A stretch of 64,000 bases of DNA from Candidatus Saccharimonadales bacterium (GTDB taxonomy: Bacteria; Patescibacteriota; Saccharimonadia; Saccharimonadales; Saccharimonadaceae), in NCBI GenBank assembly GCA_035317825.1, contig DATHGB010000020.1:1-64000 (forward strand). The letters are read 5' to 3'. The position numbers and the translations under genes were made by a program. Below, piece by piece: positions 3,170 to 19,811 of this stretch (positions within the stretch are counted from its first letter, which is position 1; the number at the start of each line of letters is the position of its first letter). The notes under the pieces are model-generated. The model saw nothing but the letters and a program-made list of their open reading frames with translations. It searched no databases and had not been told where the DNA came from.

Positions 3170-3330
3170 AAAAGACATCTTATGACATCTTTTATATATA
3201 AATTCAATTGGTGCAGCAGATGGATAAAAGTTTTCACTTGATAAGAGGTGAGCTAGATCGTTGGCGGTTGATCCTTGAAGTTCCTTATCAAGAATATCTA
3301 CAACATAAGTAAGTGTCGGGACTTACACTC
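3170..3330 (+). repeat. P3: repeat copy with hairpin and peptide tail
   Basis: An imperfect hairpin (AAAAGA 3170-3175 with TCTTTT 3188-3193) is followed by TTGGTG at 3208 and an in-frame 34-codon tail ending TAA 3310-3312, aligned without gaps to P1. GGGACTTACACT at 3318-3329 follows five bases after the stop, as in P1. The remaining sequence to 3488 holds nothing I can identify. Confidence 0.6.
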
Positions 3331-3488
3331 TGTACGCTCAATAGTATGTATTTTGTCTGCGATACCATCATGCAGCGAGCTGATGAACCGTTTATGATTT
3401 AAAATGAGCTAGTGATCTGGCGAACTTGTTCAGCCTCTATAATTCTATTATACAATATCGGCCTATCGCGCTAGAAAGCTACCGTTGC

Positions 3489-4508
3489 CTAAGCCCTCTT
3501 TTTCTTACCGTTACTTTGCGTAGTTGTATTAGTATTATAATGCCTCTCAAACAAACCGATGCTCATTGTATCAGGCATAGCAATTCTATCGCCATTGTCA
3601 AAATCGAAAAGCTTATCCATATCTAGGGTATTGAACGCTTTGACCTGCGTATCTTTTGGCTGGGGTATTCGTAGTCGTGATTTATGAAGTGCAAGCATAT
3701 TATGAAGCAACATCCCCGACAAGTAGGTACTGGTAAACCTCTGTTCCCATCTTATAAACTTAAAGGTTCGTGAAAACTGCTTAATAACCTTGTCGGGTGT
3801 CTTTTCTGTTTTTGAACTAAGATACATAAATGTATCCTGCTTGTCTGCGCCAATAACCTTGCCGTCATCTATCTGGAATCCAAACTGAGTATCAAGCAGG
3901 GCTGCACCGTGCTTATAAACATTGTAGTCCTGATTATTTAATATATCTGAGCCAAGTCTGACCAGCATGTATACCGCATTAGCTATGCCTTTTTGCCACT
4001 CCTCATCACTAAGTGTTGAATACAGCTCCCTCGGACCGAGAAGTATTTTTGCTACTTCTTCGTCATGACTACCTTCAAAATACTCCCTCTTAATCAGCTT
4101 GTCGATTCTGTCTTTAAACTCTCGAAAACTCTGCATTTGCTCAACTCCAACCCATGGACAGTCAGGATTTTCAATATGAGCAAAGAACAATCTAAAGAAT
4201 GATTCTATAGCGTGGTAGCTATTGATAGCGAGCTCTCTTTTGGCATAGCCCTCTAACCACTTGCTATCTATATCCGAATCTTTCACTGTCAACTTGCCTA
4301 CGCTAAAGCCCTTATCTAAGTGCTCCTTCATCGGCTGCACGTCTGCAATGAAACTAGCTAGAACAACGGCTTTATTTACAAAGTAGTCCTCGTCATATTC
4401 ACCATAAAATTGCTTGTTAAGCTCAGCGATTGGATTATTTGGGTCGTCTAAAGATAGTGGGATAAAAGAGTCTTCATCCGCTTCGTTTGGAGGTGTCTTG
4501 TCTGCCAT
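3489..4508 (-). CDS. Hypothetical protein, last gene of unknown directon
   Basis: 339 residues, soluble, acidic N-terminus and a basic tail (NGKKKRA). No family recognised. The middle (about residues 85-130) is a helical stretch with SYHAIESFFRLFFAH, and near 200 there is YNVYKHG; such helices with a KHG element occur in HEPN-like abortive-infection proteins, but no RxxxxH motif is present, so this is only a hint. It is separated by 78 bases from the gene above, with TATTAT six bases before AUG, so it may have its own promoter. Function unknown. Confidence 0.7.
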   Translation of the reverse strand: MADKTPPNEADEDSFIPLSLDDPNNPIAELNKQFYGEYDEDYFVNKAVVLASFIADVQPMKEHLDKGFSVGKLTVKDSDIDSKWLEGYAKRELAINSYHAIESFFRLFFAHIENPDCPWVGVEQMQSFREFKDRIDKLIKREYFEGSHDEEVAKILLGPRELYSTLSDEEWQKGIANAVYMLVRLGSDILNNQDYNVYKHGAALLDTQFGFQIDDGKVIGADKQDTFMYLSSKTEKTPDKVIKQFSRTFKFIRWEQRFTSTYLSGMLLHNMLALHKSRLRIPQPKDTQVKAFNTLDMDKLFDFDNGDRIAMPDTMSIGLFERHYNTNTTTQSNGKKKRA

Positions 4509-4586
4509 ATACCTATAATAAGCCAGTTCTAACAGTACAGAAAGTTATAGCCGCCACAAAGCTAGATTTTGCCTTCTAATTGAACT

Positions 4587-5429
4587 TTATTTTTTATCTA
4601 TTTCGTAAATATTTGCTCTTGGCTTAAGATAGTAATCTCGTAATCCTAATTCCCAAATTATAAATAGTTTTGTTATGTCGGAGATAAAGATATTGTTGAT
4701 TTCAGCTTCCAGATGCGTCTCTTCCTCTACGTAATAGTCCGTTCGATCGCTTGCTTGATGAGCATGTGGGTGGCGTAGACTATCCAGATATGCAAGAGAT
4801 TCTATATTACCGGTATCATTATTCGGTCTTAACATTCCCATTTTATGGAGTATGCGAATTGCAAATAGATTTGACCGAGTCGACGGCATTCCGTATTCCT
4901 TAAGTAGCGCAACAGAATCAGGCATACTCATCTGTACCTTCTCATGTATAAGGTCGAGTAGACGCCAATATTGAGTGTACGCTTCGGTCAAAAGTTTTAG
5001 CTCTTGCAATTCATTTGCCCGTGACCAAATAAAGGCTGAATTAAAAAAACTTCTCAATTTGGCTTGTCCGATATTTAGACCGGAAATATCTTCTAAAAGT
5101 TGCATACCCATATTTCCAAACTTTTCCGAAACATGCGAATTTTCAGCAAGCAAATGTTCTTTTCTCTCGTTATGTCCACTTGTACCGTAGTTTATTTCTG
5201 TAGTTAAAATGTCGTAATCTTCAGAATAGACATGTTCAAAGCAAAACGAATACAAAATACGTATTTCTTTTGAGACACGTTCGTAAGAGTCTTCGCTTAG
5301 TCCATCCTTCAAATTTGCTACAAGACTATGTCCACCGACGCCATAAGTTGTAACCGCATTAAGTAACTTGAAGTTTGTAATATTAACGTTGACGCCTATA
5401 TCGGGTATATTAGATCGAAATTGTGCCAT
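4587..5429 (-). CDS. HEPN-domain protein, putative RNase
   Basis: 280 residues from the ATG at 5429, preferred to the upstream ATG at 5459 because AGGAG stands nine bases before it and the upstream gene stops only five bases away. The C-terminal half is helical and contains SLRHPHAH, an RHxxxH motif of the kind that forms the catalytic site of HEPN ribonucleases (the R-polar-xxx-H signature). HEPN proteins often act as toxins or anti-phage effectors that cut RNA. The N-terminal half is not recognised. Translationally coupled to the gene at 5434-5802. Confidence 0.7.
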   Translation of the reverse strand: MAQFRSNIPDIGVNVNITNFKLLNAVTTYGVGGHSLVANLKDGLSEDSYERVSKEIRILYSFCFEHVYSEDYDILTTEINYGTSGHNERKEHLLAENSHVSEKFGNMGMQLLEDISGLNIGQAKLRSFFNSAFIWSRANELQELKLLTEAYTQYWRLLDLIHEKVQMSMPDSVALLKEYGMPSTRSNLFAIRILHKMGMLRPNNDTGNIESLAYLDSLRHPHAHQASDRTDYYVEEETHLEAEINNIFISDITKLFIIWELGLRDYYLKPRANIYEIDKK

Positions 5430-5433
5430 GTTA

Positions 5434-5802
5434 TTACACTCCTGATCGTCCTCTACCAACGCTCACCCCAAAGAAGTGTGAGAGCATACTAGCAACCTCT
5501 TCAACGGCGTTTTTGTCGATTACTGCATATTGCTCTTTAGATTCTGCACTACCGTGAGTTTCTACTTCCTCTATTACATAGGTATCATTCATTTGCTTGT
5601 GTAACGTGAGACGATAATGTTCATTACCGCCAAAGCCTTTATATATGTGGAGAATGCTGTTTTCCATAAAACAATGCCAATGATTTTTGGACTCATCGTT
5701 GCCGGCACTTAACTTTTCGTAATCATCGTTACTGATTTCCCAATGTACGGGAATAGTTCGGACTTTTTCTAATGGTTTAAATTGGCGATCTAGGCTGCTC
5801 AT
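5434..5802 (-). CDS. Small hypothetical protein in the HEPN directon
   Basis: 122 residues, soluble, mixed alpha/beta composition, not recognised. Its ATG overlaps the stop of the 226-residue gene (ATGA, 5799-5802) and its stop is four bases from the HEPN gene start, so the three are probably translated together. The tight coupling suggests it forms a complex with or controls the HEPN protein; that is inference. Confidence 0.7.
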   Translation of the reverse strand: MSSLDRQFKPLEKVRTIPVHWEISNDDYEKLSAGNDESKNHWHCFMENSILHIYKGFGGNEHYRLTLHKQMNDTYVIEEVETHGSAESKEQYAVIDKNAVEEVASMLSHFFGVSVGRGRSGV

Positions 5803-6479
5803 TCTAATTCCCTTTTCTTAAGTGTGGCGACAACTTTATCAAATGTGCCTACACCATTCTTATTATCAAGATTTGCTCCTGAAATAGATACATTCTGCCA
5901 GCTATTTAGTTCTAAATAAGGGTAGCTGGCAAGATTAGGTACTGCTTCGATCCACTTATCTCTTGCGCGCATGATAATAATTGTCTTACCAAGCCGCATA
6001 GCCTCACGCACGAGGTGGAACTGATACTGTTGCGAAGGAACGTAATGCTTGTTATATGTGTAGGTCACGGAGTGGTATGGGAAGAATTCAATCATCATTA
6101 CCCCTTGAGCCAATTCATCACGAGTAACACCTGCTTTTTCGAGTGGCTTCAGCCTAGCCGTCCACCACTTGTAGCCTCCTGTTTCTTGAACCCTAGGTGA
6201 CAAATAAAGAAATCCAGAATTGGTACTATGATCCAAGTTGGCGCGGGCTTCATGAACCCAGTAAGGATTATCGAAGTTAGTTGTTGCGTCTGCTTCCTCA
6301 AACCCTGGATTAAGTAATAGGCAAACCACTTTTGCTGTTTTGATGTCTCCTCCGTAAGGTTCTGGAAAACCATCGAAACGAAGACCGTCTCGCTTATATT
6401 TCGGGTTGTTCAATGTCTCAATATCACAGGGTGCGACAAACGGAGCTTGTTTTGGCAAATCTAACCAAGGATTGTCCAT
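5799..6479 (-). CDS. Hypothetical protein, weak UDG-superfamily resemblance
   Basis: 226 residues. Segments VVCLLLNPGF (about residues 51-60), YLSPR, and MMIEFFPYHS (about 125-134) recall the loop pattern of uracil-DNA-glycosylase superfamily folds, where a GxxPG-like loop follows the first strand, but the canonical catalytic motifs are not clear. A nucleotide- or DNA-binding role is possible. It starts two bases after the upstream membrane gene ends and overlaps the following gene by four bases. Confidence 0.65.
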   Translation of the reverse strand: MDNPWLDLPKQAPFVAPCDIETLNNPKYKRDGLRFDGFPEPYGGDIKTAKVVCLLLNPGFEEADATTNFDNPYWVHEARANLDHSTNSGFLYLSPRVQETGGYKWWTARLKPLEKAGVTRDELAQGVMMIEFFPYHSVTYTYNKHYVPSQQYQFHLVREAMRLGKTIIIMRARDKWIEAVPNLASYPYLELNSWQNVSISGANLDNKNGVGTFDKVVATLKKRELE

Positions 6480-6481
6480 AT

Positions 6482-7354
6482 TTAGTTTGATCGCCCCTTA
6501 GGTGATTGTACAGCACGGAAATGTCGAGTATCAAGCAAAAACACATCTCCACGTAACTTATGCCACCTATCAATACATTCGAGAACTTCGGCCACAGCAT
6601 CCACGAGTAACCTCCTACCATCATTGTTAGCTAGCATAGGAAGCGTATATTCCGCCCTATATTTACCAATGTTTATATCGTTGAATGCAGCTACAGCAAA
6701 TTGCCCGGATTTCTTTGTTTTTGACATAAGCAAATACCGATTTTCAAACTTATTAACTTTGTTAAGCTCGCTTCCGTTTATTACTTTGTACTTATCATCG
6801 GGTTTACCATTTGCTTTGTAGTAACGCGGTTCGGTAGCGGTTTCAAGCTGTCTTATGGCGCCTATGAGTCGTATGAAGTTATTACGTTCTTCTACATTTA
6901 GATTATTGTATGTCAGCTCACTAGAGACTAGATCATTGATAGCCTTTTCGCTTTGCAACCAGTCTGTTGCCAGAAAGAATACCATTACACTATTCACTTC
7001 AACACTCTTGAGCATTTTTTCTGGTGTCATTTGTAGTAACTTGAGTACCTTATTTAATCCTGGCGTTGGTGTACCAATTACCAGCGGCGCTATGCGATTT
7101 AATAATGTAAGCAGTTCGCGATCGGCTTGCATCTTCACATAATCAGATAGGTCTTTATTTTTTTCCGCTTCTGCCTTCTCCCTTACTTGCTCATAAAGGA
7201 AGATGACTATCGGTATGATAACAAGACTGGCACTAACATTTACCAACAAGTCCGATAGCTTTCCGTCAAAAGTTAGCGATACCAAGAACAGCACTATGCC
7301 TGCCGCCAGAGGCAGTACGTATGGGTATTTGTTTATTACTAATTTTATATTCAT
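6482..7354 (-). CDS. Membrane protein with two N-terminal spans
   Basis: 290 residues. Two hydrophobic segments (about residues 11-29 and 36-54) are followed by a charged coiled region (YEQVREKAEAEKNKD) and a soluble, helical domain of about 220 residues on the cytoplasmic side. Two-helix anchors joined to a cytosolic sensor or effector domain are common in membrane-acting defence effectors, but no known domain is recognised. Second gene in the six-gene directon, 44 bases after the 571-residue gene. Confidence 0.65.
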   Translation of the reverse strand: MNIKLVINKYPYVLPLAAGIVLFLVSLTFDGKLSDLLVNVSASLVIIPIVIFLYEQVREKAEAEKNKDLSDYVKMQADRELLTLLNRIAPLVIGTPTPGLNKVLKLLQMTPEKMLKSVEVNSVMVFFLATDWLQSEKAINDLVSSELTYNNLNVEERNNFIRLIGAIRQLETATEPRYYKANGKPDDKYKVINGSELNKVNKFENRYLLMSKTKKSGQFAVAAFNDINIGKYRAEYTLPMLANNDGRRLLVDAVAEVLECIDRWHKLRGDVFLLDTRHFRAVQSPKGRSN

Positions 7355-7398
7355 CGTAATTCAATGCTAACACTAAAGATACGATTATCGCATCTGGT

Positions 7399-9114
7399 TT
7401 AATTTTTCTTATCTGACGGGTTTAGATTTAATCCGAAAGTTGTTCCTAAATTGTCACCAAGTTCTATTAAGTAATCAGTAACATCGCTGTGCTCTAAGTC
7501 TGTAGGGTGTTTGATAATGATTTCCATAGCTTCACTACTGAGGTCAACACTGCCGATATTTTCGCTGATTAAACGTATTGCTTCATCGGGTATTGATTTA
7601 GTCCTCAAGAACTCTGCTGCTCCTCGAAACTTACTACCTGCTGCATATGCTCCGACATCCATCATTGCTACTAGGCAATGCTCCATCTGCTCTTCAAGGT
7701 TATTCTTCTTAGCAATGTCGTAATGTTCTTTCAGTCGCATTATTGAAAGGCTTGCTCCCCGAATATTGCCCTCATCAATCGTTCGTTCTGCGAAAGTTTT
7801 TATTTCGTACATCAATGAGAAAAGGGTATTTCGATTATCGGTATCGCGCTCCGAGTCAACGCAATAAGGTGCAAGTTTGTCAGCGATCACATACAGGCAG
7901 TCGTAATGTATCAATGGATACATATCTGGTCTACTTCTTTCAAATGCATACCCAACACCTAAAACGGCGTTCATGAGGGCGCTGAACTCAGTTTCATACA
8001 TAATGTTCATGAGCATTTTTTCTTCAGGCTTACTCCCAGACAACATCCTCTCGCCAAGCCAGCCTAGACATCTGTCAATGTTGTCCGCCGTTTCCTTCAT
8101 TTTTTCCGTCTCAATACTGGTCTCGTTAATAATACCCTCACCAGCACTACGGATTGCCGACATGACACTTCTGAACACAGCTGGCTGCTTACCCATATAT
8201 TCATCTCCAACGTCTTGCCATAAGTCTATTAGAGGATTGAGCTCATTTACACTCTTCCTTTCAACCAATGCAGTCGCGATGCGATCAGTACTTTCAACTG
8301 CTTCAAGCAGAACACTCTGTAGTCCGTGTGCACCTGCTAGTTCTATGCAATTATCGATAATTGCTGAATAGTATTTAACGAGTTCATAAAGTATCTTGTG
8401 GTGCTTTGATTTCGTTACATCAATTATTACTTTCTCTAGAGATCGTAATGCGGCTTGCGAAGCCTGCAAGTCGTCTCTACGAACCGCTTGCATTAGATAA
8501 CTTTCTAACGGTAGCAGCGGATTTTCTTTATCAGCTATCTTAGTTTTTCTCCGATTGTAATCTTCAAGTTTCTTTTCGTATTCGGCATTTATTTCTTCGT
8601 CACTACGTTCGTCAGTATCATCAGCTGTAGCATTAAAGAACCTTATATGAATTGGAGGCGTGGGCATAGGAAGATAGGCGTCTTCAAAATAAGATTTGAT
8701 TGCATCGGGTGTTGTTTGCTTAGACAGAAAGTCCAATGCGTTTGATGGTATTAGATACTTGGTTTCTTGAATTATTGCCAAGGCCAAACCTATAAACGTC
8801 GAGATGACCAGCAATAGGTTAAGGATCGCAAACCATTCTGAATGTACAATAGCGTCTGAATGTGCATTAAACCAAAGATAGTTATGCCTGTCGAGTGATA
8901 GCAACAAGGTTGCTAGTGATGTCGACAAAATGCTAATAACGAGTAGGATGCTAGTGGTTACGAACGACACCCCTTTAATCATTCGCTGCGTGCTCTTGAA
9001 TGAGAGTAATGGCCTAAGCACTTGCATTAGGGCGATTAGTCCAGCAAAACCTATGCCAAACACTGTAACCTGTATAACGAATAACGAATTGTAGTAGCCG
9101 CTTAAGTCACTCAT
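7399..9114 (-). CDS. Large membrane protein, first gene of unknown directon
   Basis: 571 residues with three clear membrane segments in the first 130 residues (about 13-35, 45-70 and 90-117), then a large soluble helical region rich in repeated helices. Not recognised. It heads the directon of six genes that runs down to 3489. A TATGAT box is located eight bases before ATG and may be its promoter. A membrane protein at the head of an operon containing a HEPN protein would fit a signalling or abortive-infection system, but this is only contextual. Confidence 0.65.
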   Translation of the reverse strand: MSDLSGYYNSLFVIQVTVFGIGFAGLIALMQVLRPLLSFKSTQRMIKGVSFVTTSILLVISILSTSLATLLLSLDRHNYLWFNAHSDAIVHSEWFAILNLLLVISTFIGLALAIIQETKYLIPSNALDFLSKQTTPDAIKSYFEDAYLPMPTPPIHIRFFNATADDTDERSDEEINAEYEKKLEDYNRRKTKIADKENPLLPLESYLMQAVRRDDLQASQAALRSLEKVIIDVTKSKHHKILYELVKYYSAIIDNCIELAGAHGLQSVLLEAVESTDRIATALVERKSVNELNPLIDLWQDVGDEYMGKQPAVFRSVMSAIRSAGEGIINETSIETEKMKETADNIDRCLGWLGERMLSGSKPEEKMLMNIMYETEFSALMNAVLGVGYAFERSRPDMYPLIHYDCLYVIADKLAPYCVDSERDTDNRNTLFSLMYEIKTFAERTIDEGNIRGASLSIMRLKEHYDIAKKNNLEEQMEHCLVAMMDVGAYAAGSKFRGAAEFLRTKSIPDEAIRLISENIGSVDLSSEAMEIIIKHPTDLEHSDVTDYLIELGDNLGTTFGLNLNPSDKKN

Positions 9115-9182
9115 ATTCTCTCATCATAACATTCGTACCAATCACTTGCTACAACCCCAGTAATTGCCCCCCCGTCAGTCAA

Positions 9183-9401
9183 TTATTTCCCTACTGTGTC
9201 TCGTGCTTTTTTCGCCGATCGCCGCCCAACTTTTTGTCGTAAATGCGGCTCCTCTTCATCCTTGTCCCTAAAATTAAAATATATGACAATGAGACCCATA
9301 AGGAAACCGATAGCACCCATTGAGACTGTAAGGCCAATAGTAAGGATTAAGCAGATTAGTGCTGCTATAAATCGTTCTGTTTTCTTGTTCTTTTCATTCA
9401 T
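9183..9401 (-). CDS. Small membrane protein
   Basis: 72 residues: a short charged N-terminus, two closely spaced membrane segments (about 11-30 and 31-45, perhaps one hairpin) and a basic tail ending RRSAKKARDTVGK. No family recognised. It lies 68 bases upstream of the large membrane protein gene on the same strand. Confidence 0.5.
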   Translation of the reverse strand: MNEKNKKTERFIAALICLILTIGLTVSMGAIGFLMGLIVIYFNFRDKDEEEPHLRQKVGRRSAKKARDTVGK

Positions 9402-9454
9402 ATAAATATAATATTTTTAGCTTGGCTAGTATTTTTTTGGCCTCAAACATATCT

Positions 9455-9706
9455 TTATTTCTCTACTTTCCTCTTATTCATTATTTTAGTAGTAAATTTA
9501 TAAAACCAGATGGAAAAAGCTACAGTTATCGCAAAGGCGATAGCAATCAAGATAGTACTGTTATAGTTTCCATAATTCACGCCATCAGTACCCTTAACAT
9601 TTCCAAAGATAGCACTTCCAGCCGAGGCCAATAAGATAGTTACTACATTTATAACTGCCACGGACAAAACTGCATCGACTACGATTATTATTAGCTTACG
9701 AACCAT
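9455..9706 (-). CDS. Small two-span membrane protein
   Basis: 83 residues starting at ATG 9704-9706, chosen because AGGAG lies just upstream; the longer open frame to 9967 runs through a region of strong RNA structure. Two membrane segments (about residues 4-28 and 46-66) and a basic tail KIMNKRKVEK. Function unknown. Preceded by a structured leader. Confidence 0.55.
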   Translation of the reverse strand: MVRKLIIIVVDAVLSVAVINVVTILLASAGSAIFGNVKGTDGVNYGNYNSTILIAIAFAITVAFSIWFYKFTTKIMNKRKVEK

Positions 9707-9960
9707 AATGCTCCTGCTGCTACTTGCAGCGTTATTAGTAATTGTTTTCGTGGCAATCAAAAAGCCCGCCACGAGTGATGACCTTTCGGCCATCCATAAT
9801 CCTTTCGGACTACGACAACGGAAAGAAGTACTCATGACGAGCTGTTTCTTTCCGTTGATTTGATTGACCATGCCACCGCTAAAGCAATGGTTTAGGCCAT
9901 AGGCGACGAGTCGCTTGAGGATTACTATATAACAATCAGGGTAACTATTAAAGCACAAGC
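9707..9960 (-). ncRNA. Candidate structured leader or small RNA
   Basis: Upstream of the 83-residue membrane protein lie several perfect hairpins: a 12-bp stem at 9816-9827/9846-9857, a 7-bp stem TCGTGGC/GCCACGA at 9748-9754/9768-9774, two small hairpins with CCGAAAGG on the minus strand (at 9782-9789 and 9801-9808), and GCGACGAGTCGC near 9903-9914. The density of stems suggests an RNA leader or ncRNA. No known riboswitch class was matched by eye. Confidence 0.4.
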
Positions 9961-10113
9961 CGTTCACTATTCCCGCTACAGGCGGCGAAGTTATAGTGCA
10001 GAGGTCTTAATCTTTGAATTCGTTGTATATTTATCAACAATATATATTGACCGTGCAGGAATTTTTTTGGGCGTAAATCGCTGCTCTCCCTATCGAAAAC
10101 AACACCGTTACAC

Positions 10114-10142
10114 TTGACATATGACAAACATAAGCGTATAGT
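10114..10142 (+). promoter_or_regulatory. Promoter of the recombinase operon
   Basis: TTGACA (10114-10119), 17-base spacer, TATAGT (10137-10142): a near-consensus housekeeping promoter directed at the small ORF and recombinase. Confidence 0.7.
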
Positions 10143-10157
10143 TGGACATAGAACTAA

Positions 10158-10252
10158 GTCCCCAGAGTACTTCGGTACACCCATTGTTAATTTTTGTTTT
10201 ATGGGGACGAACAGCATAAGAATTCAATCAGTCCCCTCATTGTTCAATGAGG
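10158..10252 (+). promoter_or_regulatory. Leader with competing hairpins
   Basis: GTCCCC at 10158-10163 can pair with GGGGAC at 10203-10208, enclosing a GTAC-TTCG-GTAC hairpin. A second GTCCCC at 10231-10236 could compete for the same GGGGAC, and overlaps a stem CCTCATTG/CAATGAGG (10235-10242/10245-10252) just before the ribosome site of the small ORF. The arrangement permits two exclusive folds. Confidence 0.4.
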
Positions 10253-10271
10253 TAAGGAAGATAGGATTTTT

Positions 10272-10460
10272 ATGCCTTTTTCTTTACAGAATAATGAAAA
10301 GATTCTAGATTCAGGAACAGAAGAACGTATTCCTGAGATTAGTTTCAAACAAAAGCGAAAACAGGATGCCTTAGACCTTGCATTATTGGTCTACGATATG
10401 TACAAGGAAAGTCAGATGAGTGATAGGATTATGGAGATTAACAGGAGTGACAATGACTAA
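10272..10460 (+). CDS. Small ORF coupled to the recombinase
   Basis: 62 residues, charged and soluble, with a helical middle (RKQDALDLALLVYDMYKES). Its stop overlaps the recombinase start (ATG 10453), an arrangement typical of translational coupling, and both follow the promoter at 10114. It has AGGA five bases before ATG. It could be a directionality or regulatory factor of the recombinase; no family recognised. Confidence 0.5.
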   Translation: MPFSLQNNEKILDSGTEERIPEISFKQKRKQDALDLALLVYDMYKESQMSDRIMEINRSDND

Positions 10461-12009
10461 AAACATACTCGCAATAGCCAACTATCGTGTTTCAAGTGAC
10501 GAACAGCTACTCAATGACAGCCTTGCACGACAAAAAAGGTCTGTAGAGAAAGCTGCCGACGAACTTGGCGTTAAAATTGTACGCCATTGGTCTGGAAGCG
10601 TATCAAGTAAAAAATGGGCTAACTTGGATCGAGATGATCTTGAGCAAATGCTTACCGAATGTCGGCACAACCGTGCGATTAAATATGCCATTTTCGATGA
10701 ATTGGATCGTTTTATGCGTTCAATGCTTGAGTTAGCTCACTTTATCGTCGAATTCAAAAAGCTAGGAGTGGAGGTAAAGTTTGCCTCACAGCCTAATCTA
10801 AAAACAGATACTGCTTCCAATACCCTGATACTCATGCTTGAAGCCTTCAAAGCGGAAGGCAGTAACGAGGAAAGGCAAAGAAAGTCTATTGCAGGGCAGA
10901 TCAATGCCCTACGAGACGGCCGGTATCCATTTGCTCCTAAGCCAGGCTATATGGGTGGGCGAAAAACTGGTGTACCAGCAATACACCCGATCAAGGGACC
11001 CGCATTACAAAAAGTGTTATTAGACATTGTTAATAAACATGTTACGCCGTCGCAAGGTTTGATCGACTTGAATAATAGTGATTTCATGAAGGGTGGTCAT
11101 TCATTATATAAGATGGATAAGTTCCGTAAGATCGTAACTGATTCATTCTATGCAGGTGTAGTCGAAATAGATAAACAAGTGAAGTTTCGTAATGAAAATG
11201 GATTACATGATCCCTTAATCACTTTAGAACAGCATTATGAACTCGTAAGAATAATGGACAAGAAAAAGAAAGTCCAAGCTGGTCCAAGGAAGAATGGCAA
11301 TCCCGACTACCCATTGAGTAACTTAGTTACATGCAAACTTTGTGTCGGTAAATCAACGATACCAAGATATGCAGGATTCAAACATAGCAATGGGAAAAGT
11401 AAGACACTTGTTTATCACAAATATAGATGTCGGTCATGCAATAGATACATTCCAAGGGAAGAACTACATCCAAAAATTGAACTCCAATTCCAGAGCAATC
11501 CGATCACACAAGATGGCGAGCAAGATTTTGTCGAGGCATTAGACATAGTATGGAAGCGTAAAGAAGCTCAGGCAAGACAGGACGCGGTGCGATTGAATGA
11601 AAAAATCAAAGATGTAAAAAATGATATAAATAACCGTGCGATGGCGGCCATAGACCCATCCAATCTTTCCATTAAGTCGGAGATTTTGTCGAATGTCGCA
11701 AAGCTAAAAAGCGAACTGGAAACCCTAGAGGAAGAGTCATCTGGCTTGGTCATTAAAGCTGATAACGACAAGGAGCGTTTCTTGCAGTTTGCTTTCAGTT
11801 TTGTACGTAACATGGGCAATCGCTTTCTTGAAATATCTCATGAGAACAGAGTGAGGTGTAAACAAGTCGTTTTTCCAGCAGGATTTCAACTCGACGCAAA
11901 TAATAAAGTTTACACCCCCGAAATTAGCCCTCTTATCACCTTAGCCACAAACAAAAAAGACCTTCCAAAACTTGAAAAGTCTCTTATGGTGCGGGTTAAG
12001 AGACTCTAA
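10453..12009 (+). CDS. Large serine recombinase
   Basis: 518 residues from ATG 10453 (AGGAG seven bases upstream; the upstream in-frame ATG at 10420 lacks a site). N-terminal resolvase domain with nucleophile Ser in NYRVSSDEQ (residues 10-18) and FDELDRFMR near 85; a recombinase domain; a zinc ribbon with CKLC near 297 and CRSC about 35 residues later; then a coiled coil (about 370-430). Large serine recombinases join attP and attB without host factors. The last eight codons lie in the 3' end of the tRNA-Gly gene on the other strand, the usual mark of integration into a tRNA. It is the only site-specific recombinase in the window and a candidate for moving the neighbouring cassettes, which is unproven. 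Confidence 0.92.
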   Translation: MTKNILAIANYRVSSDEQLLNDSLARQKRSVEKAADELGVKIVRHWSGSVSSKKWANLDRDDLEQMLTECRHNRAIKYAIFDELDRFMRSMLELAHFIVEFKKLGVEVKFASQPNLKTDTASNTLILMLEAFKAEGSNEERQRKSIAGQINALRDGRYPFAPKPGYMGGRKTGVPAIHPIKGPALQKVLLDIVNKHVTPSQGLIDLNNSDFMKGGHSLYKMDKFRKIVTDSFYAGVVEIDKQVKFRNENGLHDPLITLEQHYELVRIMDKKKKVQAGPRKNGNPDYPLSNLVTCKLCVGKSTIPRYAGFKHSNGKSKTLVYHKYRCRSCNRYIPREELHPKIELQFQSNPITQDGEQDFVEALDIVWKRKEAQARQDAVRLNEKIKDVKNDINNRAMAAIDPSNLSIKSEILSNVAKLKSELETLEEESSGLVIKADNDKERFLQFAFSFVRNMGNRFLEISHENRVRCKQVVFPAGFQLDANNKVYTPEISPLITLATNKKDLPKLEKSLMVRVKRL

Positions 12010-12063
12010 CTCTCGACCTCATCCTTGGCAAGGATGCGCTCTAAACAACTGAGCTAAACCCGC
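11987..12063 (-). tRNA. tRNA-Gly(GCC), overlapping the recombinase 3' end
   Basis: Folds as a full cloverleaf: acceptor GCGGGTT/AACCCGC, anticodon loop TTGCCAA (GCC), T-stem GAGAG/CTCTT and an encoded CCA (11987-11989). The T-loop reads TTAGAGT rather than the near-universal TTCGAGT: position 56 is A. That base (12007 on the plus strand) creates the TAA stop of the recombinase. Loss of C56 removes the G19-C56 tertiary pair, so this copy may be weak or derived from the mobile element. Confidence 0.85.
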
Positions 12064-12106: not shown

Positions 12107-12176
12107 GGGGTTTTGAGTTCTATCGGTCGGCACTCCTAGACGGCGACCAACTATGGCCTCCCTATTTCCGATCAAA

Positions 12177-12272
12177 GAAAATTGGAACTGTATGTTTGAA
12201 GATTTGATAATCTTATCTGATCATTTGGATGAGTTAGATATCAAAGGAGTAATCCAAAACTCTATTGAGTAA
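12177..12272 (+). repeat. R0: partial repeat (modules D/E only)
   Basis: Begins GAAAATTGGAACTGT and keeps the in-frame tail (ENWNCMFEDL, then LDELDI) to TAA 12270-12272; the tRNA-like and hairpin modules are missing. It overlaps the 3' end of the peptidase E gene by ten bases. It marks the left end of the array. Confidence 0.6.
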
Positions 12273-13706: not shown

Positions 13707-13768
13707 ACAGTCAAGTATAACGTAGAGCTAAGATCGTTAATCTATATTCTCTAATAATTCCATACAGA

Positions 13769-13982
13769 CCCTACCAGACTTGAACTAAAATAACAGAGAC
13801 GGTCAAAACAAAATGTCCCAGGACATAAATCCTGGAACATTTTGTATCTGTTGATAATTTTGGTGGACCTTACCAGACAAAACTGGAACTGTGTCTTCTA
13901 CGGTCTCCAGATTCTTTATGGACGTTTGGAGCAACTAGATATTGGAACCGTCATCAAAAAGCAACAGCGAGGCATTTATTAA
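13769..13982 (+). repeat. R1: composite cassette repeat
   Basis: The tRNA-Phe-like module has two changes (CCTACCAGACTTGAACT). Hairpin at 13810-13843 has a mismatch (TGTCCC against GGAACA). The tail reads NWNCVFYGLQILYGRLEQLDI in pieces and ends TAA 13980-13982. It is the most diverged full copy and the farthest from tRNA-Phe, as expected for the oldest insertion. Confidence 0.8.
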
Positions 13983-14053
13983 AATTTCCAAATGCCATCT
14001 TTAAGAATTCTGTTAATCTTAGGAATATCTAGCGATCGAAATGAACGCTTCTA

Positions 14054-14082
14054 TTGACTTATTTAATTATATCTGGTATAAT
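14054..14082 (+). promoter_or_regulatory. Promoter of the GC-rich cassette gene
   Basis: TTGACT (14054-14059), 17-base spacer, TATAAT (14077-14082). It is AT-rich like the host genome although the gene it drives is GC-rich. Transcription would give a leader of about 195 bases. Confidence 0.75.
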
Positions 14083-14152
14083 TAAATACGGTTCCTCGGA
14101 AACCTTATGGGAGTCTGAGTTGAACAGAACCTTGCTACTTACTAAATTGTGC

Positions 14153-14208
14153 CTTCCAGTTTGCCGTTCAGGGTAGCAATCTTGCTATGTTGAACGGCAA
14201 ACTGGAAG
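14153..14208 (+). promoter_or_regulatory. Long leader hairpin
   Basis: CTTCCAGTTTGCCGTTCA (14153-14170) pairs perfectly over 18 bp with 14191-14208, and the loop holds a further six-bp stem TAGCAA/TTGCTA. A second hairpin CCAGTTTCGCAACTGG follows at 14213-14228. The leader ends with the AGGAG of the downstream gene. A regulatory role is likely; the class is unknown. Confidence 0.55.
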
Positions 14209-14283
14209 AGAGTCCAGTTTCGCAACTGGCGGCAGAGAGATCGCTGGTATGGGGGAGCCCTAACATACGTCTAGGAGATGACC

Positions 14284-14784
14284 ATGTCAAACTCACAGAA
14301 CACCCGCACCACCAAGCGTCACTTCTACCCGAAGTTCCTGACCGGACAGCGCATCCTCGTGCTCGTCCTGGTCATGTTCATCGCGGCGGCAGCCGGCATC
14401 CTGCTGGCCCGTCCCGCGCCGAGCAGCACGCCGACGGCGACCGAGATCGCGCAAGCGGTCAACGGACCCGCCACGTTCCAACGGCCTGGTGTCATGGAGT
14501 ACGTCGTCAAGACGAACTCCTGCATCGTCGGAGGCACCGTGACGTCCGCCAACTGGCACGTCGGTGCCAAGACCGTGGGTGTCGACGCGGTGGACTGGAA
14601 GACCGTGGACTACACCGCGTTCACGTTCAAGGCAGACAACGGCCAGGTCTTCACCGTCTCCGACAACGACGCACTGTTCATGGATCCGGGTGAGAACCTG
14701 GGGCTCGAACTGGACTGCGATCCCGCCACGATGAACACGGCAAAGTCCTTCGGGATGATCGCCATCATCTTCGGCGGAAAGTAG
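14284..14784 (+). CDS. GC-rich single-span surface protein, actinobacterial-like
   Basis: 166 residues from ATG 14284 (AGGAG six bases upstream; the ATG at 14278 touches the AGGAG and is less likely). A basic N-terminus, one membrane span (about residues 19-40, ILVLVLVMFIAAAAGILLA) and an extracytoplasmic domain with two cysteines. Strong preference for G/C at third codon positions contrasts with the AT-rich neighbours and points to an actinobacterial donor. No family recognised. Alone in the R1-R2 cassette with its own promoter, structured leader and terminator. Confidence 0.75.
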   Translation: MSNSQNTRTTKRHFYPKFLTGQRILVLVLVMFIAAAAGILLARPAPSSTPTATEIAQAVNGPATFQRPGVMEYVVKTNSCIVGGTVTSANWHVGAKTVGVDAVDWKTVDYTAFTFKADNGQVFTVSDNDALFMDPGENLGLELDCDPATMNTAKSFGMIAIIFGGK

Positions 14785-14865
14785 CTCCGGCTGATCCTTC
14801 GGGATGAAGCCGTGAGTTGGCCCAACTAGTAAGACAGCAAGACGTCGGTGGACGACGTAAAGCCA

Positions 14866-14904
14866 CCCCCCTGATCATCGCGATCAGGGGGATTTTCCTT
14901 TTTT
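14866..14904 (+). terminator. Intrinsic terminator
   Basis: CCCCCTGATC (14867-14876) and GATCAGGGGG (14882-14891) form a ten-bp stem followed by a T-rich run. It ends the GC-rich gene's transcript. Confidence 0.85.
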
Positions 14905-14959
14905 GACTAAGATTGGTAAAGTCTCTATGTTTGCCCATCTATAATATTCGCTCTGTAGG

Positions 14960-15153
14960 CCCTCCCAGACTCGAACTAAAATAACAGAGATGACACAAAC
15001 CAAAATGTTCCAGGATTTATTTCCTGGAACATTTTGTATCTGTTGATAATTTTGGTGGGTCATACCAGGGAAAACTGGAACTGTATTTTTGATGGGCTTG
15101 TTGTTTTATGCGAGCGGATAGAAGGACTATATACTGGAGCGACTCTTAGATAA
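14960..15153 (+). repeat. R2: composite cassette repeat
   Basis: Exact tRNA-Phe-like 17-mer, perfect hairpin AAAATGTTCCAGGA/TCCTGGAACATTTT around 15002-15035 (loop changed to TTTATT-type), conserved block, tail NWNCIFDGLVVLCERIEGL ending TAA 15151-15153. Confidence 0.88.
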
Positions 15154-15242
15154 TGTAATCAATGCTGGACGCTATTTTTTAATAATTGCTTAGTCCAGCG
15201 CTTGATCTTAGCTTCATGCTTTTCTTTACTTCGGGCATATTC

Positions 15243-15440
15243 CTATAAAGACAATCCCGTTATGTATAGTGATTCGTAATAAGCGCGTATCTTTTCTGCT
15301 GCTTGCTTGGCGGACATTTTACCTAAAACATAGTCACCAGCAATCTTTTGAGATTCCTGTGAAACTTTTAGGCCTTCGAGTTTTTCGTTGGCGATAGCTT
15401 GTTCGACAATTTTTCTTCGTTTTTGCGTAGGTGAATTCAT
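15243..15440 (-). CDS. VbhA-like antitoxin
   Basis: 65 residues matching the VbhA antitoxin pattern: IVEQAIANEKLEGLKVS, then GKMSAKQAAEKIRAYY. VbhA proteins inhibit Fic AMP-transferases by inserting an (S/T)xxxE(G/N) helix into the active site. Here the EG is present but the position four before Glu is Asn, not Ser/Thr. No Fic gene is adjacent; the only Fic gene in view is in another cassette (18632-19780). It is 118 bases downstream of the NYN gene, past a terminator. Confidence 0.65.
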   Translation of the reverse strand: MNSPTQKRRKIVEQAIANEKLEGLKVSQESQKIAGDYVLGKMSAKQAAEKIRAYYESLYITGLSL

Positions 15441-15517
15441 ACTTATACTTTAGTCTACAGATGGCTTCCTGTATTGCTTTTCTTTGTCGGTTGTGCTATT
15501 ATTTAGATATCAAGACG

Positions 15518-15557
15518 AAAAGAGTTCCGAACGGTTAGTTGCCTAAGGAGCTCTTTT
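15518..15557 (-). terminator. Terminator of the NYN gene
   Basis: AAAAGAG (15518-15524) with CTCTTTT (15551-15557), extended by TCC/GGA, directly after the NYN stop codon on the minus strand. Confidence 0.7.
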
Positions 15558-15558
15558 C

Positions 15559-16077
15559 TTATTTCTTGGTCTTGGTACGAGCTATCTTTCGCTTCACGTC
15601 TTTATCATCAAGATATGCAAAGTATGACGCCCCTATTTGCTTGTAGAGTGACGACCGGAATTTCTTATTCGGAAAGAGAATTTTCTCCAGTTTTGACTCT
15701 TCAATAAGGTAGTCAATTAGCATCTTATAATCTCCGTCACCAGAAACAAGCACTATTTTGTCAAAATCTCGATCTTTATGGAGACGCTTCATGACTGAAA
15801 ATATGATATCGGAATCAACGTTTCCCTTCTTATTGCCAATCATTGCGGAATTATGCTGTCTGAAAACAAGAATAAAACCAGCATTCTGAATGTTTTCGTA
15901 AAGCTGTTCAATTTTTAAGCCTTCCTGTACATATCCAAGATAATAAAATGCCCTTTCGACCTTGTATTTCTCGCGAAGGTAAATTCGAAATTTATACAAA
16001 TCAACGCCCCAGGAAGGCTCGGCACTCGCCGTGCCAAGATGTAAATTTTGACCATCAATGTAACAATAATTTTTCAT
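15559..16077 (-). CDS. NYN-domain (LabA/PIN-like) nuclease
   Basis: 172 residues with the NYN fold pattern: IDGQNLHLG at residues 7-15 (first catalytic Asp), DVDSDIIFSVMKR near residue 88, and VLVSGDGDYKMLIDYL near 110 (SGDGD with paired Asp). NYN domains are metal-dependent RNases related to PIN domains. Length and motif order fit the LabA-like family. In a cassette array it could act as a toxin-like or defence RNase, but this is inference. TATAAT lies 11 bases before ATG. Confidence 0.82.
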   Translation of the reverse strand: MKNYCYIDGQNLHLGTASAEPSWGVDLYKFRIYLREKYKVERAFYYLGYVQEGLKIEQLYENIQNAGFILVFRQHNSAMIGNKKGNVDSDIIFSVMKRLHKDRDFDKIVLVSGDGDYKMLIDYLIEESKLEKILFPNKKFRSSLYKQIGASYFAYLDDKDVKRKIARTKTKK

Positions 16078-16245
16078 AAGGTGTTTTTATTATAACATTG
16101 TTGCATAAGCACTATTCTTTCCGTATGAGATATCCTGTAATTCTCTAAAAGTTTCGGGCGTTCTGTACTTCTACAGAATGGCTACGCTAAAACCCCATTT
16201 TACAAAGCTTTTTTGAAGTTGATCGAAACAATAATTCCGTACAAA

Positions 16246-16472
16246 CCCTCCCAGACTCGAACTAAATTACAGGGGCGATTTTACAAACTAAAAATCCGAG
16301 AACTTAATTCTCGGATTTTCGTATCTGTTGGATAATTTTGGTGGATCATGGCAGGGAGAACTGGAACTGTATATTCTCTGACCTTCAGATTCTTTGTGAT
16401 CGCTTGGAACAACTCAACACTGAGACTACGCTTGGAGAGGATGATTTATATATAACGAGCTGCCATTCATGA
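16246..16472 (+). repeat. R3: composite cassette repeat
   Basis: Exact tRNA-Phe-like 17-mer; hairpin AAAATCCGAGAA/TTCTCGGATTTT (16291-16302/16308-16319), a different stem from R2 with pairing preserved. The conserved block has an extra G. Its first 127 bp (16246-16372) are identical to R6. Tail ends TGA 16470-16472. Confidence 0.88.
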
Positions 16473-16473
16473 A

Positions 16474-16734
16474 CTATTTGTATAGCTGACTATGCGTACC
16501 AATATGTGTAAACATAGCTGTTTCATCATCTACCAGGTAGTAGATAGCTCTATAGTCACCAGTAACATCAATACCGTAGCTCCCTTTGTATGGAGTATTC
16601 AGCGCGTGGTTTCTTAATACGTAGTCAAGGGGATCTTTACTGAACCTCGTGATGCGTTCAACCATCTTTTCTTTTACCTTTGAAGAAAGCTTGCTAGCCA
16701 TTTTATCAAAGCGTTTATGAAAAACTACGTTCAT
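16474..16734 (-). CDS. RelE/YafQ-type mRNA interferase toxin
   Basis: 86 residues with the RelE/ParE-superfamily pattern: basic N-terminal helices, TPYKGSYGIDVTGDYRAIYYL in the strands, and a C-terminal IGTHSQLY, which is characteristic of the YafQ subgroup (IGTHSxLF). Such toxins cut mRNA in the ribosome. Its ATG overlaps the antitoxin stop by four bases, the usual antitoxin-first order. Toxin-antitoxin pairs are classical stabilisers of cassette arrays. Confidence 0.85.
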   Translation of the reverse strand: MNVVFHKRFDKMASKLSSKVKEKMVERITRFSKDPLDYVLRNHALNTPYKGSYGIDVTGDYRAIYYLVDDETAMFTHIGTHSQLYK

Positions 16735-17018
16735 AAGGAGTTAAGATGATCTGCTACTTCGTTAGGCTTAACAAAAACCTTCGATATGTTTTTATTTTGT
16801 TTGTAGTCGTCAATCGCTACGCTAAGCTCATGCTCGATTTCTGGTCGTAAACGAGGAAAAGCCGACACAGTTAACGAACGACTGCGGACGAACTCTTTCA
16901 GGCTTGCTGATATTACAGTGGTAAGCGGTACACCGATCTCATCGGCTAGGTCCTGAGCTTCACGCTTTAGGGCCTTACTAACCTTTATGTTGATGATAGC
17001 TTTATCTAATGTATTCAT
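16731..17018 (-). CDS. RelB/DinJ-type antitoxin
   Basis: 95 residues from ATG 17018. An N-terminal ribbon-helix-helix (AIINIKVSKALKREAQDLADEIG, then PLTTVISASLKEFV) of the RelB/DinJ family, which binds DNA as a dimer, and a C-terminal toxin-binding stretch. The longer frame starting with TTG at 17054 is rejected because that TTG is the -35 box. The promoter and operator directly precede the ATG, implying a leaderless, autoregulated transcript. Confidence 0.85.
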   Translation of the reverse strand: MNTLDKAIINIKVSKALKREAQDLADEIGVPLTTVISASLKEFVRSRSLTVSAFPRLRPEIEHELSVAIDDYKQNKNISKVFVKPNEVADHLNSL

Positions 17019-17023
17019 ATACC

Positions 17024-17054
17024 AAAGTATATACAATGGTATATACTTTGTCAA
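17024..17054 (-). promoter_or_regulatory. Toxin-antitoxin promoter with embedded operator
   Basis: Minus strand TTGACA (17049-17054), 17-base spacer, TATACT (17026-17031), then seven bases to ATG. The spacer is filled by a perfect palindrome AAAGTATATAC-AATG-GTATATACTTT (17024-17049), the probable binding site of the ribbon-helix-helix antitoxin. Confidence 0.8.
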
Positions 17055-17140
17055 GTATCAAATTCCTACAAAAATAATGGTAGTGGCTACCTAAAATCTA
17101 CTAGCCATATAGCTGTTTGCTTCCTGTGACTGCTGCCTCA

Positions 17141-17245
17141 TAGTCTCACAAAGATATGTGAGTACACACGAGACTACCTCTGTTTAATTTCATACGACTG
17201 TTTTATTGTATTTTTTAGAAAAACAGTCGTTTTTGTCGTATGAAA
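17141..17245. other. Nested inverted repeats upstream of the TA pair
   Basis: TAGTCTC/GAGACTA (17141-17147/17170-17176) encloses CTCACA/TGTGAG. Next to it TTTCATACGAC/GTCGTATGAAA (17188-17198/17235-17245) encloses GACTGTTTT/AAAACAGTC (17196-17204/17220-17228). No open frame is present. Could be a structured RNA or a fold-back DNA end. Confidence 0.4.
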
Positions 17246-17288
17246 AGTAAGTTATTATTAATAATTAAACTACCTACACTGAGTCTTC

Positions 17289-17488
17289 CCCTCCCAGACT
17301 CGAACTAAAATAACAGAGGCCACACAAAACGAAAAGTTCTAGAAAATAAATTCTAGAACTTTTCGTATCTGTTGATAATTTTGGTGGGCCATGCAAGGGA
17401 AAACTGGAACCGTATTTTTGAGGGTTTGATTGTTTTATACGAGCGAATAGAAGAATTAGATATTGAAGCGACTACTTGTACTCAATAA
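17289..17488 (+). repeat. R4: composite cassette repeat
   Basis: Exact 17-mer; hairpin AAAAGTTCTAGAA/TTCTAGAACTTTT (17332-17344/17351-17363), a stem shared with R10; tail NWNRIFEGLIVLYERIEEL to TAA 17486-17488. Confidence 0.88.
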
Positions 17489-17635
17489 TTTCGGATTATT
17501 ACCAATAAGACTACTATTTGGAAACTTTAGTAGAGGGAGATTTTGCAATCGTAATTTTTACTAGTTTACGAAATGTACTTGCTTTCATGTGACTATTATA
17601 CCACCTCACCCGCTTCTTCAATAAGGATTTTGAGT

Positions 17636-17776
17636 TTACTTTTGATCGCCACGCTTTTTACGCTTAATCAAGATCACTATGCCCCATACAATGGCTACGG
17701 GCACAATTATGTAAAGTGCATAAATTATGAATGGTAATATGAGAAAAAATATATTAACTACTTGGTCTTGGTTCAT
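17636..17776 (-). CDS. Small membrane protein
   Basis: 46 residues from ATG 17776, with GAGGAG six bases upstream. Mostly one or two hydrophobic helices (residues 9-36) and a basic tail KRKKRGDQK. AT-rich, unlike the GC-rich gene 86 bases upstream on the same strand. A partner or immunity role for the secreted protein is conceivable. The longer open frame to 18076 overlaps that gene out of frame and is rejected. Confidence 0.6.
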   Translation of the reverse strand: MNQDQVVNIFFLILPFIIYALYIIVPVAIVWGIVILIKRKKRGDQK

Positions 17777-17812
17777 CTGTTTCTCCTCTTTAATAATTTC
17801 GTGTTGCGGTGC

Positions 17813-17845
17813 GGGACGGCGGCGGAATCTCTCCGCCGCCGTCCC
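17813..17845 (-). terminator. GC-rich hairpin between two cassette genes
   Basis: GGGACGGCGGCGGA and its perfect reverse complement separated by five bases, just after the secreted-protein gene. No T-run follows on the minus strand, as in many actinobacterial hairpin terminators. Confidence 0.6.
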
Positions 17846-17862
17846 TCCTCCGTCAGGAGGTG

Positions 17863-18213
17863 TTACGGCTGCTCTTCCCGCTGGCACTTCCATCCGAAGA
17901 TGGTGTGCTCGTAGACGGTGGCGACCGATCCGGGCCACTTCGCGTTGCAGTAGGCCTGGATGTCCAGATCCCCACCGAACGTGACACCGGCCGGGATTGA
18001 CAGGTCGTAGCACGTCAGGGAGTACGGGTTGCCCCAGTCGATGGACGTGGCGCCCGTGCTTCCCTGGTAGCGGCACACGGACGTGGCTTCGACCGGGTAC
18101 AGCACGTAGTAGCCGGACTCGGCCGATGCCGGAGCAACGCCGATGATGCCGATGCCAGCCGCAAGGCCAAGCGTCGTCGTGAGGGCAAAGAGCCCTCGCT
18201 TAATGGTGTTCAT
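17863..18213 (-). CDS. Secreted Cys-containing protein, actinobacterial-like
   Basis: 116 residues. A signal peptide (basic N-terminus, hydrophobic core LTTTLGLAAGIGIIGVA, cleavage after ASA near residue 31) precedes a small mature domain of about 85 residues with four cysteines. Codon use is strongly GC-biased, unlike its surroundings, suggesting an actinobacterial origin. The GGAG before the start lies in a hairpin (CACAC...GTGTG). No family recognised. Might act on the host cell surface. Confidence 0.7.
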   Translation of the reverse strand: MNTIKRGLFALTTTLGLAAGIGIIGVAPASAESGYYVLYPVEATSVCRYQGSTGATSIDWGNPYSLTCYDLSIPAGVTFGGDLDIQAYCNAKWPGSVATVYEHTIFGWKCQREEQP

Positions 18214-18424
18214 TCTTCACACTCCATGGTGTGTGTCGGACGTGAACATAGGAGATTAATATCAGGGACTCATTCGGATCTGTCGAAGAGTGTGACAATA
18301 CAGACATGAATGGATTTCACATCTGCTCTCACCTCTAAAGATTATGTACAATAACGTCTTATATTGCAAGGTCGAGAGACTCCCAAAGACTAGACGAGAT
18401 GGAAATAGGCCAACTGCTCTCCCG

Positions 18425-18621
18425 CCCTCCCAGACTCAAACTAAAATAACAGAGACGGTGCAAAACAAAATGTTCCAGGAAATAAATCCTGGAACATTTT
18501 GTATCTGTTGATAATTTTGGTGGATCATGCCAGGGAAAACTGGAACTGTGTTTTTGATGGGTTGATTGTTTTATCTGGGCATATAGAAGAAATGGATATC
18601 GAGGTACTTATAGAAGTCTAG
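18425..18621 (+). repeat. R5: composite cassette repeat
   Basis: One change in the tRNA-like 17-mer (ACTCAAACT). Perfect hairpin AAAATGTTCCAGGA/TCCTGGAACATTTT (18467-18480/18487-18500). Tail NWNCVFDGLIVL ... IEEMDIE to TAG 18619-18621. Confidence 0.88.
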
Positions 18622-18631
18622 CCACTAGGTA

Positions 18632-19780
18632 TTAGTTATCACCATCAAATAGTGACAGATAATCTCCGTAAATCCATTTCTGTGCATACACATTTTCACC
18701 TTTCTTCATTGGTGAAAGGATACCTATGCCGACAAGTCGTTCAATAACTTTATAGCCGCCTCGCTCCGTGTAGCCTGTCCATTTTACAATATCTGCAATA
18801 CCAGCAATCGGAATTTTGTACAAGTTTTCAAGTACTTTAACAGTAGCTTCAGAAGCCGTACGATTAAGCATCTGAACCTTGGCCATGTCACGCTCTCGAA
18901 GTTTTGTAATTGCAGCACAGGTAGCAATGGCGGAGTTAGCAATCTCAATAACACCATCAAGAAAGAAATCAAGCCATTCTACCACTTCTCCATTATGATA
19001 ACCATCGAGCTTCTCATAGTATAGTTTCTGATGTTGCTTGAAATATGAAGATAGATAAAGAATAGGCATTTCTAGCAAACCTTTATACCAAAGGAACATT
19101 GTAATAAGCATACGACCAGTGCGTCCATTACCGTCATTAAATGGGTGAATTGTTTCAAACTGGGCATGTAAAAATCCCGCCTTAATAAGAGGTAAGAAGT
19201 CATCTTCTGCATGAATAAATTTCTCAAACTGGTCAAGAGCAGTTTTCATCTCATGAACTGGAGGCGGAACATATTTTGCATTATCTGGCCGAGTACCAGA
19301 AATCCAGTTCTGCTTAGTGCGAAATTCACCTGGATATGCAGGGTGGGTTACTCTAGCATTAGTCATCAATTTTTCGTGAAGTTCGCGAACAAATCGAAGG
19401 GTAATCGGAAACGTTTCGGCGCGTTTAAGCCCATAATTTAATGCATCAATATAATGCAGAATATCATCTACGTCAGCTGGCAAATTAATACTCGGCTCTA
19501 CATTTTCCCGCTCAATTGCATCCATCATGGTAGCATTCGTGCCTTCTATTTGGCTCGATGATGATGCATCCTTGCGGATAAACATTGTCAGAAACCAATC
19601 CTTATCAGGTAATAATTCAGTAATACCATCTAATTTACCGAGCAGTCGAACTGCTTCTGTATGTTTAGCAATTATCTTACGGTCTAGTCCCAAATCACCT
19701 CCTGGCGGAAAGTCATTAGGTATAAAAGCTTTATAACCTTCTTTTTGGTGTACGTATTGTCCAATTAAAATCTTGTTCAT
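18632..19780 (-). CDS. Fic-family protein, AMP-transferase type
   Basis: 382 residues from ATG 19780 (GGAG eight bases upstream; an upstream in-frame ATG at 19837 lacks one). Contains the Fic motif HPFNDGNGRTGR (catalytic His), and near the N-terminus SSQIEG, the (S/T)xxxE(G/N) inhibitory helix of class II Fic proteins, so activity is self-inhibited. The C-terminus looks like a winged helix. Fic enzymes transfer AMP or similar groups to protein hydroxyls. Only gene between R5 and R6. Confidence 0.92.
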   Translation of the reverse strand: MNKILIGQYVHQKEGYKAFIPNDFPPGGDLGLDRKIIAKHTEAVRLLGKLDGITELLPDKDWFLTMFIRKDASSSSQIEGTNATMMDAIERENVEPSINLPADVDDILHYIDALNYGLKRAETFPITLRFVRELHEKLMTNARVTHPAYPGEFRTKQNWISGTRPDNAKYVPPPVHEMKTALDQFEKFIHAEDDFLPLIKAGFLHAQFETIHPFNDGNGRTGRMLITMFLWYKGLLEMPILYLSSYFKQHQKLYYEKLDGYHNGEVVEWLDFFLDGVIEIANSAIATCAAITKLRERDMAKVQMLNRTASEATVKVLENLYKIPIAGIADIVKWTGYTERGGYKVIERLVGIGILSPMKKGENVYAQKWIYGDYLSLFDGDN

Positions 19781-19811
19781 ATCTTTATCTCCAATATGAA
19801 CATTATTGCAT

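Follow-up and report, generated by a model that had tools for sequence, protein, structure and literature searches.

A large serine recombinase gene ending inside tRNA-Gly at a tRNA-anchored cassette array in a Saccharimonadaceae genome

The window analysed here comprises 64,000 nucleotides of one contig (DATHGB010000020.1, assembly GCA_035317825.1) from a Candidatus Saccharimonadales bacterium of the family Saccharimonadaceae. A large serine recombinase gene, rec1, with a possible start at GTG 10420 or ATG 10453, runs into the 3' end of a tRNA-Gly(GCC) gene encoded on the other strand, and the two genes overlap by exactly 23 nt (11987-12009). The last recombinase codons encode MV and then, inside the tRNA antisense, RVKRL followed by the stop codon. 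The T-loop, TTAGAGT, occupies 12003-12009 in antisense and carries A at position 56. A sequence-only reading of this DNA had described this arrangement, and its description stands: the ARAGORN tRNA and the open reading frame coordinates agree, and by exact sequence a C at position 56 would turn the TAA into GAA. The genome holds no second tRNA-Gly(GCC), its Gly-TCC and Gly-CCC tRNAs being separate, which leaves the A56 copy as its sole GCC isoacceptor. The features of the locus are collected in the table.

Table. Features of the recombinase element, the two arrays and their anchoring tRNA genes (coordinates within the window)
Feature	Position	Strand	Remarks
T1 tail junction opening the preceding cassette	6-107	+	MFS gene 86-1288
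T3-type tail junction	1405-1509	+	opens cassette with DUF84 NTPase and SDR genes
Left end of element, T1 tail LVQQMDKSFHLIRGELDRWRLILEVPYQEYLQHK, then stop	3208-3312	+	core TGGTGC at 3209-3214; in the recombinase's frame
rec1 element, about 8.8 kb	3209-11986	+	at tRNA-Gly 3' end
62-aa open reading frame	10272-10460	+	overlaps rec1 start; conserved in rec1 elements (includes DALDLALLIYDMYK)
Large serine recombinase rec1	10453-12009	+	518 aa as integrated; Pfam Resolvase, phrog_95
Terminator-like hairpin and T-run for tRNA transcript	11955-11985	-	within 3' coding sequence of recombinase
Right end of element, core TGGTGC at tRNA CCA end	11987-11992		putative crossover region; core recurs at most tail junctions
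tRNA-Gly(GCC), U19-A56 type	11987-12063	-	ARAGORN; sole GCC isoacceptor in genome
rec1 stop codon TAA	12007-12009	+	T12007 is the complement of A56
Leftmost T2 tail of tRNA-Phe array	12174-12245	+	core not preserved
Ten repeats separating gene cassettes	13754-28105	+	terminator hairpin, TGGTGG core, T2 tail in nine; last abuts tRNA-Phe
tRNA-Phe(GAA), anchor of second array	28090-28165	-	ARAGORN

The N-terminal catalytic domain of rec1 was recognized by Pfam Resolvase (residues 8-156, E 5.9e-18, 65.8 bits), and the integrase family phrog_95 aligns with residues 4-440. Although the latter alignment spans most of the protein, the Pfam Recombinase and zinc-ribbon domains were undetected in rec1; in a second recombinase family, rec2, Recombinase scored above the cut-off and the zinc ribbon remained below threshold. 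On the strength of its Resolvase domain and phrog_95 match, rec1 is a probable large serine integrase. Searches with rec1 returned no match among PDB sequences, and only distant serine integrases matched among phages. The 62-aa reading frame overlapping the recombinase start could encode an accessory or directionality factor. The remaining genes of the element, on the minus strand at 3489-9114, had no Pfam matches, and the five of them compared with PADLOC yielded nothing beyond a weak match to a 4TM effector. Terminator-like hairpins directly behind the tRNA, inside the recombinase coding sequence, were also found at other rec1 loci. The element would thereby restore a terminator to the tRNA behind which insertion occurs.

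The opposite end of the element carries a counterpart to the recombinase 3' end. From position 3208 the sequence reads TTG GTG CAG, that is, the core TGGTGC leading into a 34-codon frame, here termed the T1 tail; T2 (LVDHARENWNC..) and T3 (WCSIVDAFQTS..) tails were recognized at other junctions. T1 and T3 share their frame at the core with rec1 and rec2, respectively. A T1 tail lies upstream of rec1 at all 11 loci where a tail is within reach, and a T3 tail lies upstream of rec2 at 8 of 8, so that tail type equals recombinase type in 19 of 19 cases (Fisher p 1.3e-5), with the matching tails placed 2.7-10.9 kb upstream of the recombinases. Among codons with a single change, the synonymous fraction was 0.58 for T1, 0.53 for T2 and 0.54 for T3, against 0.20-0.21 under neutrality; judged by these substitutions, all three tails are under protein-level constraint. 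The 24 nt preceding the core hold only about 0.1 bit per position for T1, and the left half-site is thus nearly free, a junction of which one half is almost unconserved and which differs in this from the usual att sites of serine integrases. A putative circle joining both ends of the element would encode a recombinase of 545 aa, compared with 518 aa in the integrated form. Neither a circular form nor a recombinase-tail fusion was found in searches of rec1 and rec2 against viral contigs and of rec1 against plasmids, and no chromosomal rec1 is followed by its own tail among the loci examined.

The tails could alternatively be independent small proteins or leader peptides that open cassettes and are unrelated to the recombinase C-terminus. 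Many cassettes free of a recombinase do carry them, and their first codon, NTG, is a possible start codon. However, conserved sequence is absent upstream at the position of a ribosome-binding site, and neither the shared frame nor the 19 of 19 agreement with the recombinase in cis would be anticipated from such proteins. We consider this explanation unlikely, and favor the reading of the tails as displaced C-termini of the recombinases.

The element is one member of a longer series. In the window, the order towards tRNA-Gly is T1 at 6, T3 at 1405, T1 at 3208, rec1 and the tRNA itself. The end of contig C21 (locus L218) shares 145 identical bases with positions 1-145 of the window, at a tail junction, which indicates that the assembly breaks off within the array and that the two contigs can be joined at this point; contig C21 holds four more tails and continues the tRNA-Gly array. 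Among 393 genomes of the order, 70 contain T1 tails, and a single contig often bears more than one; arrays of T1 and T3 tails ending at tRNA-Gly were recorded at L219, L220, L222, L224 and L226-L228. On the other side of tRNA-Gly, a T2 array extends from 12174 to tRNA-Phe at 28090, and in several relatives that lack the array these two tRNA genes lie about 0.1-1 kb apart. The T2 cassettes carry genes for a peptidase S51, an inositol monophosphatase, a NYN protein, a YafQ-like toxin, a Fic protein, an alpha/beta hydrolase, a DUF3182 protein and a methyltransferase-NUDIX protein. Three cassettes of the tRNA-Phe array (14000-15000, 17600-18400 and 24000-26500) have a G+C content of 52-61%, compared with about 38-45% around them, which suggests that their genes were acquired from other organisms. 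Tails are conserved even in cassettes without a recombinase. From the genomes compared, tRNA-anchored cassette arrays are widespread in Saccharibacteria. Searches of the open-access literature yielded no account of arrays of this kind from Saccharibacteria, although this is not proof of novelty.

The behavior of the recombinases at their target tRNAs was compared across the order. Relatives of the recombinase were found in 41 of 393 genomes, mostly draft assemblies, and 34 loci were read, some of them sharing one genome. Where intact, and apart from the exceptions given below, these recombinases continue in frame into the antisense strand of a tRNA gene at its 3' end, mostly Gly(GCC) and also Arg, Lys, Glu, Leu and Ala. 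Because the 23-nt overlap with tRNA-Gly recurs in many genomes, the arrangement seen in the window is not a chance one. For rec2, read-through is clear at tRNA-Gly and tRNA-Asn, and one tRNA-Ser(GCT) overlaps the match. The exceptions are contig ends, broken genes and four loci (L140, L145, L152 and L266) at which a second element, inserted precisely at TGGTG, separates the recombinase from the tRNA; two further loci (L156 and L123) resemble tmRNA ends by eye, for which ARAGORN gave no confirmation. The frame at the core is constant for each type, always NTG GTG for rec1 at tRNA-Gly and always TGG TGC for rec2. The position of the stop codon varies with the tRNA. In A56-type tRNA-Gly, rec1 stops at the TAA of the T-loop; in the sole U56 case (L097/L144) it reads on for 20 residues, which bears out the earlier claim that base 56 sets the stop. 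The extension of rec2 into the antisense measures 3, 21, 27 or 28 residues. Across these loci, the recombinase stop is whatever the tRNA antisense supplies. At L264 (8939-9262), the antisense of tRNA-Gly is entered by a rec2 fragment, shortly followed by a T3 tail; this may be what is left of an earlier insertion.

Mere compaction or gene decay beside a tRNA, without a mobile element, would be in keeping with the small and compact genomes of Saccharibacteria. Nevertheless, we regard it as very improbable, given that one recombinase family abuts different tRNAs, always on the 3' side and at the CCA end, that matching tails are found kilobases upstream, and that further elements have been inserted exactly at the core (L145, L152 and L266). 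An insertion at the core by a mobile element remains our preferred reading, with the crossover apparently placed at the CCA end (TGGTG). Two other placements of the site were considered and ruled out. A duplication of the tRNA-Gly 3' end as an att repeat would leave a second copy, which is absent from the genome, where only the 6-nt core TGGTGC at 3209 corresponds to it. A crossover in the T-loop is at odds with the junction homology, which stops at TGGTGC, and with the tRNA stem variants, which follow the host.

The sequence-only reading had treated A56 as a mutated base that may have been delivered by the element at a cost to the tRNA. Comparison of the tRNA across relatives refutes this view, by the very test which that reading had proposed, namely whether the uninterrupted tRNA-Gly of related strains also has A56. 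Base 19 was located by its position after G18, since gaps in the D-loop misplace it in the MAFFT alignment. Among 29 distinct tRNA-Gly(GCC) sequences, the 19-56 pair was U-A in 15, G-C in 8 and A-U in 6, with no mismatches. A tRNA-Gly(GCC) pattern in which positions 19 and 56 were left free matched in 35 of 101 genomes of the family, and all full-length sequences read from the family have T19 together with A56. In a phylum-wide pattern search combined with ARAGORN, U19-A56 was found in Saccharimonadaceae and several other families, A19-U56 in further families within the order and class plus a few outside, and G19-C56 mostly outside the class. U19-A56 is common to dozens of genera, irrespective of the presence of a recombinase. 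In 19 genomes, A56 was found at loci (19 in all) with no recombinase in about 1.4 kb downstream of tRNA-Gly, the best recombinase match in each being only the tRNA antisense itself. In the same genome as rec1, tRNA-Pro(TGG) likewise departs from G19-C56, carrying A19-U56. A sequencing error or a local mutation was ruled out as the source of A56 by its conservation over genera. By these comparisons, A56 is an old and inherited trait of the lineage and not damage by the recombinase; it is compensated because U19 restores a Watson-Crick 19-56 pair, and no cost to the tRNA is visible. With the crossover evidence at the CCA end, the T-loop would belong to the host side of the junction. That the element delivered a mutated T-loop base to give its recombinase a stop, at the expense of the tRNA, can be dismissed with near certainty: the stop does depend on base 56 and the affected tRNA-Gly(GCC) is the only one in the genome, but A56 is fixed with U19 over dozens of genera with or without the recombinase, the two bases pair, and recombinases at U56 tRNA-Gly or at other tRNAs end elsewhere. 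The tRNA-Gly sequences also offer a clean natural case of three-state covariation of the 19-56 tertiary pair.

Taken together, the explanation we favor, with a probability of roughly 80%, combines an inherited A56 with insertion at the CCA end and an exchange of tails, within a cassette array. The element of 8.8 kb, with the recombinase gene at one end, would have inserted at the CCA end of tRNA-Gly through the core TGGTGC. The recombinase frame crosses the junction into the tRNA antisense and continues up to the first stop, for which an A56-type tRNA-Gly supplies the TAA of its T-loop, behind RVKRL; rec1 would end on A56 because the element inserts at the CCA end. The 34-aa tail, taken as the native C-terminus, lies at the opposite end of the element. 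Accounting for both ends, the circular element is predicted to carry the recombinase gene at full length, and on integration tRNA antisense would take the place of the tail, a replacement that may act as a switch. The element is one unit of the tRNA-anchored array, with new units probably entering beside the tRNA. Against this explanation stand the negative searches for a circular form or fusion, the lack of a chromosomal rec1 followed by its own tail and the nearly unconserved left half of the junction; moreover, the exchange of tails alone does not explain why tails are kept in cassettes free of recombinases.

Integrons use a tyrosine integrase and attC hairpins. The arrays described here resemble them in being arrays of small-gene cassettes that share a recombination site, some without a recombinase; they differ from the definition of an integron (IntI tyrosine integrase, attI/attC) in that the recombinase is of the serine type, a tRNA serves as the anchor and every junction bears a protein-coding tail. 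Like rec1, the large serine integrases of phages A118 and TP901-1 have an N-terminal resolvase domain and about 500 aa (22-26% identity), whereas the targets of rec1 are tRNA genes at the CCA end. An integrase gene that gains a new 3' end has precedents: in the Myxococcus phage Mx8, attP lies inside the int gene, so that integration gives it a new 3' end (PMC6070905), and in archaeal SSV integrases attP likewise lies inside the integrase gene (PMC4383910). The rec1 system may be similar, in that the reading frame crosses the core at the tRNA-bound recombinase and a matching tail lies at the other end. However, those enzymes are tyrosine integrases, whereas rec1 is a serine recombinase whose new 3' end comes from the tRNA CCA end and whose tail is shared by arrays of cassettes. 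The Islander study reserves the term integrase for the tyrosine enzymes, its examples of this kind included (PMC4383910). Islands of the Islander type share with this element a position beside an intact tRNA 3' end and tandem units; they differ in having a displaced tRNA fragment, of which nothing beyond the 6-nt core is present here, and a tyrosine rather than a serine integrase.

A broader proposal, which we hold tentatively and with somewhat more doubt than confidence, is that Saccharibacteria practice an integron-like capture of cassettes, in which several large serine recombinases act and tRNA CCA ends serve as the anchor. Specificity would reside in a single half-site, on the tail-coding side or in the tRNA, with the other half unconstrained, so that tandem growth could proceed without limit, and the cassette-borne tail would switch the enzyme between a tailed and a tRNA-capped form. 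If our reading is correct, serine integrases do target tRNA genes, contrary to the 2014 Islander paper, in which they were not known to do so (PMC4383910). A rule for reading such genes would also follow: RVKRL or GFEPTT.. after TGGTG would be tRNA antisense, and the real tail would be found at the other end of the element. Furthermore, epibiotic bacteria with very small genomes would own a general platform for capturing genes, whose integrase has a switch built into its C-terminus.
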